Positions 6,867 to 37,045 of a stretch of DNA of 64,000 nt are shown here, piece after piece. The notes under the pieces are model-generated. The model saw nothing but the letters and a program-made list of their open reading frames with translations. It did no database searches and had not been told where the DNA came from. The DNA comes from Flavobacteriia bacterium 40-80. Its GTDB lineage: Bacteria > Bacteroidota > Bacteroidia > Flavobacteriales_D > Crocinitomicaceae. The stretch's first letter is position 1, and the number at the start of each line of letters is the position of its first letter. The position numbers and the translations under genes were made by a program. Where the stretch lies: contig MKVF01000021.1 in assembly GCA_001899145.1 (NCBI GenBank), positions 186,001 to 250,000 on the forward strand. The letters run 5' to 3'.

Positions 6867-7499
6867 TCAGATAATCTCAAACAAATCCTCCTTGTTTTTT
6901 CGTACTTTTTTCCAATGTTGAAAAATGTCCTCTTCCGAACGGTATCCTAACGCGCAGACAACGGTAGCTGTCAGGTTTTTTGCCGGGAGTCCCAGTACTT
7001 CATCGTATTTTGACGCAATAAATCCTTCCATTGGAGAAGCATCCACCCTGTGAATGGCAGCTGTCTGAAGCAGCTGTCCCAAAGCAATGTAACATTGCTT
7101 TTCATTGGAATTAAGGATCTGGTCCTCTGTCCGGTTCATCAAACTTGCCTTCAGGTGAAAAGCATAAGTAGAAAGCTGCTCCATCGGTGTTTCCCGTATG
7201 ACGGAATTAAGATAAATATAATCATCATAATGCGTTTCATTTAATGTTTTATAAGAACAGAAAACAAATAAATGAGAAGCGTCCGTGATCTGTGGCTGGT
7301 TGAATGAATGCTTTCGTAATTCCTGTCTTATTTCAGGTGTTTCAATAATCAGGAACTTATAGGGTTGTAAACCATTTGACGTCGGTACTAAACGTAAAAC
7401 ATCTTTGAAATGTTCAATAATCTCAGCCGGAATTTTTTTGTTTGTATCATATTTCTTCACGGCATAACGCCATTGAAGATCCTCTATCAGTCTTTTCAT
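6867..7499 (-). CDS. NfsB-like nitroreductase family NAD(P)H oxidoreductase
   Basis: A 210-residue FMN-dependent nitroreductase-fold protein. The N-terminal WRYAVKKYD segment (FMN phosphate-binding Arg/Lys), the PTSNGLQPYKFLII core and the C-terminal ALGYRSEED loop are typical of the NfsB/YdgI group, which reduce nitro compounds or quinones using NAD(P)H. The ATG at 7499 is chosen because the TATCTTTG promoter box lies at 7518-7525, overlapping the alternative TTG start at 7520. It is followed by the sucB-side terminator. The physiological substrate cannot be told from sequence. Confidence 0.88.
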   Translation of the reverse strand: MKRLIEDLQWRYAVKKYDTNKKIPAEIIEHFKDVLRLVPTSNGLQPYKFLIIETPEIRQELRKHSFNQPQITDASHLFVFCSYKTLNETHYDDYIYLNSVIRETPMEQLSTYAFHLKASLMNRTEDQILNSNEKQCYIALGQLLQTAAIHRVDASPMEGFIASKYDEVLGLPAKNLTATVVCALGYRSEEDIFQHWKKVRKNKEDLFEII

Positions 7500-7594: not shown

Positions 7595-8470
7595 TCAGGC
7601 TTCCATCGGTACTTCCATCAGTAAAATCCGGGAATCTTTGCTCATTTCCAGATCCAGCTGATCTGTATCCCAGATTCCAAGACCGTCCCGGCGTTCCAGC
7701 TGTATACCGTTAATTTTTGCTGTGCCTTCCAGTAGAAACGCATATACACCGTTTCCTTTTAGCTTCAGATCATACGATATATTCTGCGAATGATCAAATT
7801 CGCCTAAATGAAACCACGCATTTTGATGGATCCAGACTCCTTCATCTTCCGGATTCGGAGAAACAATCTGGTACAGCGTATTTTTCAGCTTCGATTCATC
7901 CAACGTTATCTGATCATAACGAGGCTCGACATTTTTTTTATTCGGAAAAACCCAGATCTGTAAAAACTTCGTATGTGCCGTTTTTGAAGCGTTCATTTCA
8001 GAATGGAAAATTCCGGTTCCGGCACTCATCACCTGGATATCCCCGTGACGGATCACTCCTTTGTTTCCCATTGAATCCTGATGTTCCAGGTCTCCTTCTA
8101 ACGGAATGGAAATGATCTCCATATTATCATGAGGATGCTTTCCGAACCCTGTTCCCGCATCTATATAATCATCATTCAGCACACGTAAGACACCGAAATG
8201 TACTCTTTCGGGATTGTAATAATTAGCAAAGCTGAAAGTATGGTGAGATTTCAGCCATCCGTGGTCTGCGTATCCACGTGTATCCGCTTTATGCAAAATT
8301 GTATTCATTGTTTTATTCTCCTTATTTGGTAAATGATTAAAGCCTACCTGTTCCATTAGTTTATCGTAAGTTGACGGCTTTTTCTCAACTGACGAACCTG
8401 CTATTGCCGTAGTTGCTACTACTCCGGCCGAACCTAAAAGCGTCTTTTTCAAAAAATCTTTTCGATCCAT
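7595..8470 (-). CDS. pirin family protein with an N-terminal Tat-like export signal
   Basis: A 291-residue bicupin. The pirin/YhhW core starts near residue 55 (RGYADHGWLKSHHTFSFANY). It keeps the metal site His112, His114, His156 and Glu158, with the same 44-residue spacing as the YhhW quercetinase site. Ahead of the core is an unusual extension of about 54 residues: DRKDFLKK followed by a hydrophobic stretch ending in AIAGSS. This resembles a twin-arginine (Tat) signal with Lys replacing the second Arg. The promoter at 8498 supports the long form as the expressed one. It is divergent from a TonB-type receptor, with a 38-bp palindrome over its promoter. Substrate unknown; quercetin-like flavonoids are known for relatives. 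Confidence 0.88.
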   Translation of the reverse strand: MDRKDFLKKTLLGSAGVVATTAIAGSSVEKKPSTYDKLMEQVGFNHLPNKENKTMNTILHKADTRGYADHGWLKSHHTFSFANYYNPERVHFGVLRVLNDDYIDAGTGFGKHPHDNMEIISIPLEGDLEHQDSMGNKGVIRHGDIQVMSAGTGIFHSEMNASKTAHTKFLQIWVFPNKKNVEPRYDQITLDESKLKNTLYQIVSPNPEDEGVWIHQNAWFHLGEFDHSQNISYDLKLKGNGVYAFLLEGTAKINGIQLERRDGLGIWDTDQLDLEMSKDSRILLMEVPMEA

Positions 8471-8497: not shown

Positions 8498-8505
8498 CAA
8501 ATATA
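8498..8505 (-). promoter_or_regulatory. -7 box for the pirin gene
   Basis: TATATTTG on the minus strand matches TAnnTTTG exactly and lies 28 bp before the pirin ATG at 8470. The 38-bp palindrome begins at this box and fills the space between it and the expected -33 position. Confidence 0.65.
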
Positions 8506-8542
8506 ATACTTAAATATTTACCATGGTAAATATTTAAGTATT
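8505..8542. promoter_or_regulatory. perfect 38-bp palindrome, candidate operator
   Basis: The 19-bp arms are perfectly complementary with no spacer, centred on CCATGG at 8521-8526; the inner core is TTTACCATGGTAAA. It abuts the pirin -7 box and spans the -33 region, the classic place for a repressor to block RNA polymerase. Transcribed, it could also form a cruciform or long hairpin. The regulator is not encoded next to it. Confidence 0.75.
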
Positions 8543-8654
8543 TATAACAAATCCGATAACCGGAAAATATCAAAATGATTTTTAAAACATTCTGTATCTT
8601 CTTTAAATTTAAGTTAGCGGGTACTAAAAATTCGTCAGAGCCGTTTTAAAAAGT

Positions 8655-8662
8655 TAATTTTG
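8655..8662 (+). promoter_or_regulatory. -7 box for the TonB-type receptor gene
   Basis: TAATTTTG matches TAnnTTTG. A near-consensus -33 element TTCG at 8631-8634 sits 20 bp upstream. The box lies over the alternative start at 8660 and so supports the ATG at 8681. Confidence 0.6.
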
Positions 8663-8680
8663 CACATCCAATTGTACCCC

Positions 8681-11248
8681 ATGAAAAACATATATCTGGC
8701 ATTCATTCTTATCTCCTTTCTGTTTTCCGGAAACTATTCAATTGCTCAGTATCCCCCAATGAACGGACAAGGAATGAACGGCCAGCGACCTTCATTAAAA
8801 GGTCATGTTTATGGAAAAGTGGTCAATGAGAAAAATTTAGCTATTGATTTTGCAACAATCGTTCTGATGAAGCCGGTATTGGATTCAGTTTCAAAATCGG
8901 TGAGCTATGCCGGGTATAAAACCACTACTACTGAGAGTAACGGTGAATTTATTTTTGAAGATTTTGATGTGATGCCGAAAATGAAGATCCGTTTTACTTC
9001 CTTCGGCTATGTAACACAGGACGTAGACCTGGTTTTTGACCCGAAAAACATTTCAATGGGTATCCTGCAGCTGGATTTAGGCCGGATCAAAATGGAACCC
9101 GAAGCTTCAACTGAACTGGACGAAGTAAAAATAGTCGCAACAAAGCCGCTGCTGAAATTAGACGTGGATAAACGTGTATTTGATGTAAGTCAGAATCCCA
9201 TATCTGAAGGAGGAACAGCTGTGGATGTAATGAAAAACGTTCCCGGTGTAAATGTGGATATGGATGGAAACGTCCAGGTAAGAAACAGCGCGCCTCAGAT
9301 TTACATAGACGGGAGACCGACGACGTTAACCTTAGACCAGATACCCGCTGATGCCATTGAAACAGTGGAAGTAATGACGAATCCTTCTGCAAAATATGAT
9401 GCGTCAGGTGGTGGGGCAGGAATTATCAATATTGTTCTAAAGAAGAATAAGAAAACAGGGTATAACGGAAGTATCCGTGCCGGAGTGGATAGTTATCTGG
9501 GACATAATGTCGGTGGAGATATCAACTACCGCCAGAATAAGTTTAACTTTTCGGCAAGTCTGAATTACCGGGCACGAAGAGGAAGAACAACCAGTGAAGT
9601 GCTGCGTGAAAATTACCGTGACAATGATACCATTGATAATATCATGACACAAAATGATGTAAATAAGCAAACCGGAGGAGGCTTTTTCGGCCGTATGGGA
9701 ATTGATTATTTACCTACCAATAAAACATCTTTTTCCCTGGGGTTTGATCTTTGGAGCGGAGCTTTCAATAATACTTCTGCTTCTGATATCAATACTGACA
9801 GCATATATGCGGGAAACCCGGATCTGTACTACTATCAGCGTCTGACAGATTCGAAGCGGAATATGATAAATTATGGCGTCAAGCTGGGGTATAAGCAGCT
9901 GTTCAGGCGTGCAGGAGAAGAGCTGACCTTTGATGGTTCTTTCAATACCGGAACATTCAAAAACAACAGCTTATATACTTCTGAATATCATGTTACGGAT
10001 ATTAATTCTCCTCTTGATTATAGCGCTTACCAGAAAATTATAGGTTCGGGAGATAATTATAATGCTGTTTTTCAAGCCGACTATGTACTTCCGCTGGAAG
10101 TTTTTAAAATTGAAACGGGTTTGAGAGCTCAGTTACGGGGAAGAACTAACCTGAATGATAATTACCGTTTTATCAATGATGATTATCTGCTGATTCCTAA
10201 TCCTGCATCGAATTATTCCAACACAGACAATGTATATGCTGCCTACGTCATGTTGTCCAAACAGTATAAAAAAATTGGCTATAAGGTCGGATTACGTGCT
10301 GAATCTTCTGATTACAAAGGGAAGCTGGCACAAACGGGAGAAGAATTTAAAGTACAATATCCTGTCAGCTTATTCCCCTCAGCGTTTTTGTCGTATCAGC
10401 TGACCGAAAAACAATTTTTACAGCTGAACTATTCCAGAAGGGTAGAGCGACCGAATTTCTTTCAGCTGATTCCCTTTGTGGATTCTGTAGATGTATTTAA
10501 TATGAGCCGTGGAAATGCAGCTCTAAAACCGGAGTTCACCGATAATATTGAATTGCAGTACCTGAACAATTTTGACAAGAAGAACACACTTCTGGCATCT
10601 GTTTATTACAAATACACTACTAATCTGATCACCCGCTATATTGAACAGGCAGATAACGGAGCTTTAATTAATACCTACATCAATGCGAATTCCAGCTATT
10701 CTACGGGTCTGGAGCTGATCAGCACAAACAGCATAAAAAACTGGCTCGAAATTACTTCCAGTGTGAATGTGTATAATTCAAAAATCAACAGTGATGACTA
10801 CCAGAGCTGGACATCTTCTGCCCGTTGGTCGTGGTTCGGGAAACTTAACTTGGCGTTCAAGCTCCCTGCTCAGTTCACTGTTCAGCTTACCGGGATCTAC
10901 CAGTCCAGATCAAATATGCCGGTCAGCGATGGAAGCAGAATGATGGGGCCGCCAATGAACCAGGTGCAAAGTACTTCTCAGGGATACATTGATGACTTCT
11001 GGGCGGTGGACATCGCTGTACGCAAAACGTTCTTCAACAGAAAGCTGGCTGTCAATCTTTCCGTGAGCGATATTTTCGGATCCCGTCATTATACGAGCAT
11101 TTCACAGAGCGGCTATTTCTATCAATACTATGACCGGTTGTCAAATCCGTACATGGTACGTCTGAATGTGAGCTGGACATTCGGTAAAATGGATGTGAAC
11201 TTATTCAAGCGACTAAGTAAAGGAACGGGTGAATCGGTAATGGAATGA
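8681..11248 (+). CDS. TonB-dependent receptor-like outer-membrane beta-barrel protein
   Basis: An 855-residue outer-membrane protein. After a signal peptide (about 1-23, ending SIAQ) comes a carboxypeptidase-regulatory-like beta sandwich (about 45-130: GKVVNEKNLAIDFATIVLMK). Next is a TonB plug domain (about 145-250, with NVPGVNVDMDGNVQVRNSAP and IYIDGRPT), then a long barrel of alternating aromatic strands to the C-terminus. It resembles the 'outer membrane beta-barrel family' receptors of Bacteroidetes rather than a SusC protein; no SusD partner is nearby. Substrate unknown. The ATG at 8681 is chosen because the -7 box covers the earlier start. The pirin gene is divergent upstream. Confidence 0.9.
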   Translation: MKNIYLAFILISFLFSGNYSIAQYPPMNGQGMNGQRPSLKGHVYGKVVNEKNLAIDFATIVLMKPVLDSVSKSVSYAGYKTTTTESNGEFIFEDFDVMPKMKIRFTSFGYVTQDVDLVFDPKNISMGILQLDLGRIKMEPEASTELDEVKIVATKPLLKLDVDKRVFDVSQNPISEGGTAVDVMKNVPGVNVDMDGNVQVRNSAPQIYIDGRPTTLTLDQIPADAIETVEVMTNPSAKYDASGGGAGIINIVLKKNKKTGYNGSIRAGVDSYLGHNVGGDINYRQNKFNFSASLNYRARRGRTTSEVLRENYRDNDTIDNIMTQNDVNKQTGGGFFGRMGIDYLPTNKTSFSLGFDLWSGAFNNTSASDINTDSIYAGNPDLYYYQRLTDSKRNMINYGVKLGYKQLFRRAGEELTFDGSFNTGTFKNNSLYTSEYHVTDINSPLDYSAYQKIIGSGDNYNAVFQADYVLPLEVFKIETGLRAQLRGRTNLNDNYRFINDDYLLIPNPASNYSNTDNVYAAYVMLSKQYKKIGYKVGLRAESSDYKGKLAQTGEEFKVQYPVSLFPSAFLSYQLTEKQFLQLNYSRRVERPNFFQLIPFVDSVDVFNMSRGNAALKPEFTDNIELQYLNNFDKKNTLLASVYYKYTTNLITRYIEQADNGALINTYINANSSYSTGLELISTNSIKNWLEITSSVNVYNSKINSDDYQSWTSSARWSWFGKLNLAFKLPAQFTVQLTGIYQSRSNMPVSDGSRMMGPPMNQVQSTSQGYIDDFWAVDIAVRKTFFNRKLAVNLSVSDIFGSRHYTSISQSGYFYQYYDRLSNPYMVRLNVSWTFGKMDVNLFKRLSKGTGESVME

Positions 11249-37016: not shown

Positions 37017-37045
37017 AAAAAACCGGAATTAATTCCGGTTTTTTT
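37017..37045. terminator. orphan palindromic terminator upstream of mnmD
   Basis: A perfect 28-bp palindrome (arms AAAAAACCGGAATT and its complement) followed by one further T. Rightward it is a good intrinsic terminator, but no plus-strand gene precedes it for about 3 kb. A small RNA or silencing of read-through into mnmD are possible roles. Confidence 0.75.

Follow-up and report, generated by a model that had tools for sequence, protein, structure and literature searches.

A perfect 38-bp palindrome on a pirin promoter of Flavobacteriia bacterium 40-80, a probable operator of an unlinked MarR-family repressor

The palindrome and its position on the pirin promoter

The promoter of a pirin gene in the window, i.e., the whole 64-kb stretch of DNA analysed here, carries a perfect palindrome of 38 bp, which raises the question of whether this is an operator and, if so, which protein binds it. 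A preliminary description of the locus had proposed 19-bp arms without a spacer, and this was borne out (Table 1). Positions 8505-8542 form the longest spacer-free perfect palindrome of the window. The runner-up, a perfect palindrome of 28 bp at 37017-37044 (AAAAAACCGGAATTAATTCCGGTTTTTT), resembles a bidirectional terminator. Given the composition of the window, the expected number of perfect 19-bp arms is 4.7e-7 per 64 kb and 2.6e-5 per genome, rising to approximately 2e-4 per genome at the local AT content of 70%; with expected numbers far below one, the view that such symmetry is rare by chance holds.

The palindrome spans 35 to 72 bp 5′ of the pirin ATG and begins, as had been proposed, at the putative -7 box of this gene, which it overlaps by one base. 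The consensus of this box in Bacteroidota is TANNTTTG. The ATG of the divergent receptor gene lies 138 bp from the palindrome, in agreement with the ~140 bp first given, and the neighbouring genes of the window indeed include no regulator gene. The pirin itself starts with MDRKDFLKK, a leader-like N-terminus and putative export signal, and the PDB entries it resembles most are E. coli YhhW (1tq5, E 1.4e-59) and 6uts, the latter named quercetin 2,3-dioxygenase.

Table 1. Features of the pirin locus, the candidate regulator gene and the five genomic sites
Feature	Position	Strand	Basis or remark
Perfect 38-bp palindrome (candidate extended operator)	8505..8542	.	AATACTTAAATATTTACCATGGTAAATATTTAAGTATT, identical to its own reverse complement
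Conserved 18-bp operator (putative), 9-9 inverted repeat	8515..8532	.	TATTTACC-AT-GGTAAATA; recurrence in the genome and in relatives
Putative Bacteroidota-type -7 box of the pirin gene	8498..8505	-	sequence, TATATTTG
Left half of AraC-linked element	8549..8556	-	TCGGATTT, at -86 from the pirin ATG
Pirin, predicted target gene	7595..8470	-	Pirin and Quercetinase C-terminal cupin domains; ATG at 8470
Nitroreductase-family gene	6867..7499	-	directly downstream of pirin, same strand; domain search
Divergent OMP_b-brl_3 / TonB-type receptor gene	8681..11248	+	domain search; ATG at 8681
Putative -7 box of the divergent receptor gene	8655..8662	+	sequence, TAATTTTG
MarR-family gene, predicted repressor	G000:C30:88781-89224 (outside window)		PF01047; site in its own promoter
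Site 1	this window		before pirin1 and nitroreductase genes
Site 2	L285		before second pirin gene (pirin2)
Site 3	L287		before YceI gene
Site 4	L288		before two paired YceI genes, each with a leader-like N-terminus and PF04264 (domain scan)
Site 5	L289		before MarR-family gene, TonB-type receptor gene directly behind

The conserved operator and its outer arms

The full 38 bp are absent from every other promoter examined and were seen in the window only. Since the core, here TTTACC-NN-GGTAAA, recurs elsewhere, we take the conserved operator to be the 18-bp heart of the palindrome rather than its full length. Upstream of related pirins TATTTACC-NN-GGTAnATA was found at L011/L091, L027/L106, L095 and L102, with variants at L093 and L109, while TACCATGGTAAATAT lies upstream of the second pirin of this genome (L006). 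Of 103 distinct pirin promoters, 7 have the core, the window's own included, so the prediction that the palindrome would also stand before orthologous pirins was borne out for the core in some promoters and failed for the full 38 bp. The nitroreductase gene of the window is probably in the same operon as pirin, and a nitroreductase gene is the first after pirin at six of the seven promoters with the core and at 16/103 overall. Of the 96 promoters that lack the core, 56 have the AraC-type or the Crp-type element in its place, and in 38 an AraC or Crp-like gene is found no further than two genes upstream.

The preliminary description had called for a genome search with a 14-bp core, which returned one exact copy. 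The pattern WWWTACCNNGGTAWWW occurs at exactly five places in the 3.52-Mb genome, with none for the reversed control. All five lie just 5′ of genes or transcription units (Table 1). The closest solved structure to the first YceI protein is TT1927b (1wub). When up to three mismatches were allowed, 48 sites were found in the genome against 28 for the reversed control, and most are taken as background; C27:69458 from this list is among the five. Across the family, TATTTACCNNGGTANATA with at most one mismatch is present in 141/240 genomes and the reversed pattern in 96.

In a set of 87 sites, two from this genome and the rest from relatives, at least 63 have a YceI, pirin, LigB, cyclase or DoxX gene no more than 130 bp away, a lower bound as, e.g., L168 is linked to pirin by coordinates and went unscored. 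The other 24 have no typical target nearby, and ten of these have no exact TACC/GGTA core. LigB is found near 7/87 sites and FMN_red near 1/87. At L135-L137, L176, L177 and L181 we observed pirin-like ORFs of ~370-385 aa with the operator centre 16-19 bp before the start codon. By eye, the sites L188, L190 and L191 of genome G053 look like repeated sequence.

It is highly improbable that the palindrome is a chance occurrence, an assembly artefact or the remnant of a mobile-element end. The comparison set contains one genome of the genus, leaving the full 38 bp without a within-genus comparison, but such a palindrome is hardly expected once by chance, and its core recurs at pirin promoters of other genera and before five transcription units of this genome, whereby the chance reading is already refuted for the core. 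An 18-bp core placed just 5′ of genes also has the form of MarR-repressor operators, which are (pseudo)palindromes of 16-20 bp at promoters according to PMC6798810.

In each arm, the outermost 10 bp lie beyond this conserved operator. Their symmetry would either make binding stronger or cooperative, or have arisen as a by-product when the template was switched at an inverted repeat, and it is only slightly short of an even bet that they have no function of their own and are such a by-product, or a structural feature, over the 18-bp operator. This applies to the outer arms alone and is compatible with a MarR operator at the core. In its favour, most sites do without long arms, the non-core arm sequences vary among the long-armed sites, and pairing across positions 10-20 as a whole is only modestly in excess (372 vs 346 ± 13 for permuted arms; reached in 59/2000). 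Against it, arms of at least 13 bp are over-represented, being found at 9/82 sites against a permuted mean of 1.9 and maximum of 7 (2000 permutations, with kinship among sites uncorrected), and this excess is kept when the set is narrowed to the 22 sites whose 9-bp arms are perfect, where 0/20000 permutations reach it. Such over-representation fits selection as well as mutation or template switching. The window site is the longest-armed of the set, and the longest-arm statistic is weak when taken alone, as 918/20000 permutations reach 19, approximately the rate that results from re-pairing the window's arms with themselves (1 in 22).

A MarR-family gene as candidate regulator

We put the probability that the palindrome is the operator of the MarR-family repressor encoded at the MarR locus of Table 1 at roughly 0.88, judging from sequence comparison. 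The preliminary description had left the controlling protein nameless, whereas the site and the co-occurrence with MarR orthologs now provide a candidate. Its proposal that a dimeric repressor has its operator at this promoter gains support from the conserved site, the five copies before genes and this same co-occurrence. The predicted protein of 148 aa has a MarR winged-helix domain (PF01047, E 1.1e-10, above the cut-off) and its best PDB match is 3u2r, 'Regulatory protein MarR' (E 3.9e-14). In the promoters of this gene and its 29 closest orthologs, TACCNNGGTA lies no more than 120 bp from the assigned start in 30/30 and exactly 14 bp before it in 24/30, and as such the gene seems to be autoregulated.

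MarR orthologs, at a cut-off of our own choosing, are present in 114 of the 240 family genomes. The site is found in 105 of these 114, which include the genome where the idea arose, and in 36 of the 126 others (Fisher 1.5e-25, with genomes counted without regard to kinship); in the remaining nine of the 114 the strict pattern has no match. Genus g24, which has no ortholog, supplies 22 of the 36 MarR-less genomes with a site. When it is left out the comparison is 105/114 vs 14/40 (Fisher 2.9e-12), i.e., 14 MarR-less genomes outside g24 carry sites. The reversed pattern occurs in 40/114 genomes with MarR and in 56/126 without (21/40 outside g24 and 35/86 within it). The sites in MarR-less genomes therefore amount to no more than background.

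At 20 further MarR loci, comprising edge cases and negatives, TACCNNGGTA is present in four (L280-L283) and absent from 16. It is missing from the 1-kb MarR loci of G065, which has an ortholog at 52%, and of four MarR homologs at 51-54% in family f3. Among the 16 loci without it, TTTACNNGTAAA occurs in L265, L267, L276 and L279, and ATGTANNTACAT in L269, L270, L271, L274 and L275, as if, in the distant homologs, operator and regulator had changed together, clade by clade.

In genome G068 (L283) the pirin, MarR and receptor genes are neighbours, with the site before MarR. Of the 29 ortholog loci, 19 have a receptor homolog in the flank that matches over at least 300 residues, three others give short partial matches and seven have none. 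The receptor behind the MarR gene and the divergent receptor next to pirin are distant homologs with 27% identity. Direct repression of the divergent receptor by the palindrome was considered and is not supported, because the promoter-like box of this gene lies ~113 bp from the palindrome. The proposed link between palindrome and receptor is therefore supported by way of the receptor in the MarR operon rather than through the divergent gene. An essential thiol switch at Cys95 was also rejected: this residue is present in the MarR protein and its 29 closest orthologs and is replaced in G005, G001, G065, G045, G319 and others, and so is not essential throughout.

There is a small chance that all five sites belong to some other, unlinked regulator, of which the MarR gene is just one target. 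The MarR gene is not beside pirin, a site before a regulator gene is no proof that its product binds there, and the promoters linked to AraC and Crp-like genes show that regulators of pirin get exchanged. The search for other regulators in the genome covered HxlR, MarR, MarR_2 and cNMP-domain genes, leaving TetR, Rrf2, LacI, AraC and other families outside it. However, the site co-occurs with this one MarR clade, stands in all 30 of the closest MarR promoters, and is absent before 16 of the 20 edge-case and distant homologs. Within the genome, two HxlR genes, two other MarR genes, three weaker MarR_2 matches (L231, L232 and L233, of which L231 scores as ArsR-type) and six cNMP-domain genes have no TACCNNGGTA in their 3-kb loci and were rejected. 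Crp-like control, considered because TTNANCTAGNTNAA, a palindrome of other pirin promoters, resembles TTTACCNNGGTAAA, was rejected as well.

With the MarR protein as repressor, a MarR dimer, or perhaps two on the longer dyad, would sit on the 18-bp operator and cover the promoter 5′ of the -7 box, so that pirin and nitroreductase would not be transcribed. Its release would be brought about by oxidation or by a small molecule of electrophilic or quinone-like nature, and the two pirins, the nitroreductase, the three YceI proteins, and MarR itself with its receptor would be switched on. The target genes make it plausible that the signal would be a flavonoid or quinone. MarR-family proteins can also activate.

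Exchange of regulators and relation to known systems

Pirin promoters elsewhere in the Bacteroidota have other elements. Across the set of 103, an upstream AraC gene accompanies the TCGGATTTTCATAAGT element (17/23 with the element vs 5/80 without), and a cNMP-domain gene accompanies the TTNANCTAGNTNAA element (16/38 vs 1/65); 34/103 fall outside all four classes scored. The palindrome TTNANCTAGNTNAA lies at approximately -65 to -90 of pirin in L035, L044, L049, L055, L081, L107 and others, where pirin adjoins a small cNMP-domain (Crp-like) regulator gene. A further type of palindrome, around GTTTAAAC, was seen in the pirin promoters L021, L022, L028, L037, L062, L088, L089 and L090, and L028 and L037 have in common a perfect palindrome of 24 bp, AATTAGATGTTTAAACATCTAATT.

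Like the window promoter, those linked to AraC and Crp-like genes drive pirin with YceI or nitroreductase downstream. They differ in having the TCGGATTTTCATAAGT repeat beside an AraC gene or TTNANCTAGNTNAA beside a cNMP-domain gene, i.e., an adjacent regulator, while that of the window system is unlinked. The TCGGATTT half-element at -86 of the window promoter lies where AraC-linked pirin promoters have their element (-84 to -94), and L093 combines an AraC gene, an AraC element and a MarR-type site, which suggests that control by AraC is the older one and that MarR control was superimposed on it.

The closest known system is MhqR of Staphylococcus aureus and Bacillus subtilis, a quinone-sensing repressor of the MarR type, as is proposed here; the likeness is drawn from published descriptions and the operator. 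According to PMC12893000 and PMC6798810, MhqR represses its own operon, binds a 9-9 bp inverted repeat, TATCTCGAA-ATCGAAATA, and has targets including nitro- and quinone reductases and ring-cleavage dioxygenases. The repeat is also 9-9 here (TATTTACCA-TGGTAAATA), and possible counterparts of those targets are a nitroreductase and a quercetinase-like pirin in this genome, with LigB and FMN-reductase genes in relatives. However, the operator letters differ, TATCTCGAA-ATCGAAATA for MhqR against the TTTACC core, which is thus not of the MhqR type. The word pirin is absent from the main texts of PMC12893000 and PMC6798810, and an outer-membrane receptor gene stands behind the regulator gene here, unlike in MhqR. 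Pirins have also been studied in another Bacteroidota species, Bacteroides fragilis, where Pir1 and Pir2 are induced by oxygen and iron limitation, the iron response being independent of FurA (PMC11304471). The open-access papers searched, with subscription papers outside their scope, gave no work joining MarR, pirin and YceI, none on a MarR palindrome with pirin in Bacteroidetes, and none on the MarR family with YceI in Flavobacterium or on a pirin and YceI regulator in Flavobacter; nor was the 14-bp core found there as text. Single papers that did match concern, to judge from their titles and abstracts, rhamnose regulons and terpenoid production.

A wider proposal, which we regard as unlikely though worth stating, is that the MarR protein of Crocinitomicaceae and its co-transcribed receptor form one sensing unit, in which the receptor would import an electrophilic or quinone-like compound, MarR would sense it inside, and a dispersed regulon of pirin, lipid- or quinone-binding YceI and nitroreductase would be turned on. 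The module would have been rewired among AraC, Crp-like and MarR regulators across the Bacteroidota, the window promoter being a MarR operator over a remaining AraC half-element.

What was an orphan palindrome thus becomes a predicted five-site regulon with a named, directly testable candidate regulator. On the sequence evidence, this regulon is very probably a small gene set for redox-protective proteins under a MarR-type repressor encoded elsewhere in the genome. Pirins are widespread and poorly understood, and control shared with YceI, nitroreductase and a receptor hints at their job. The exchange of AraC, Crp-like and MarR regulators over one module, if true, would give a clear example of rewired regulation.
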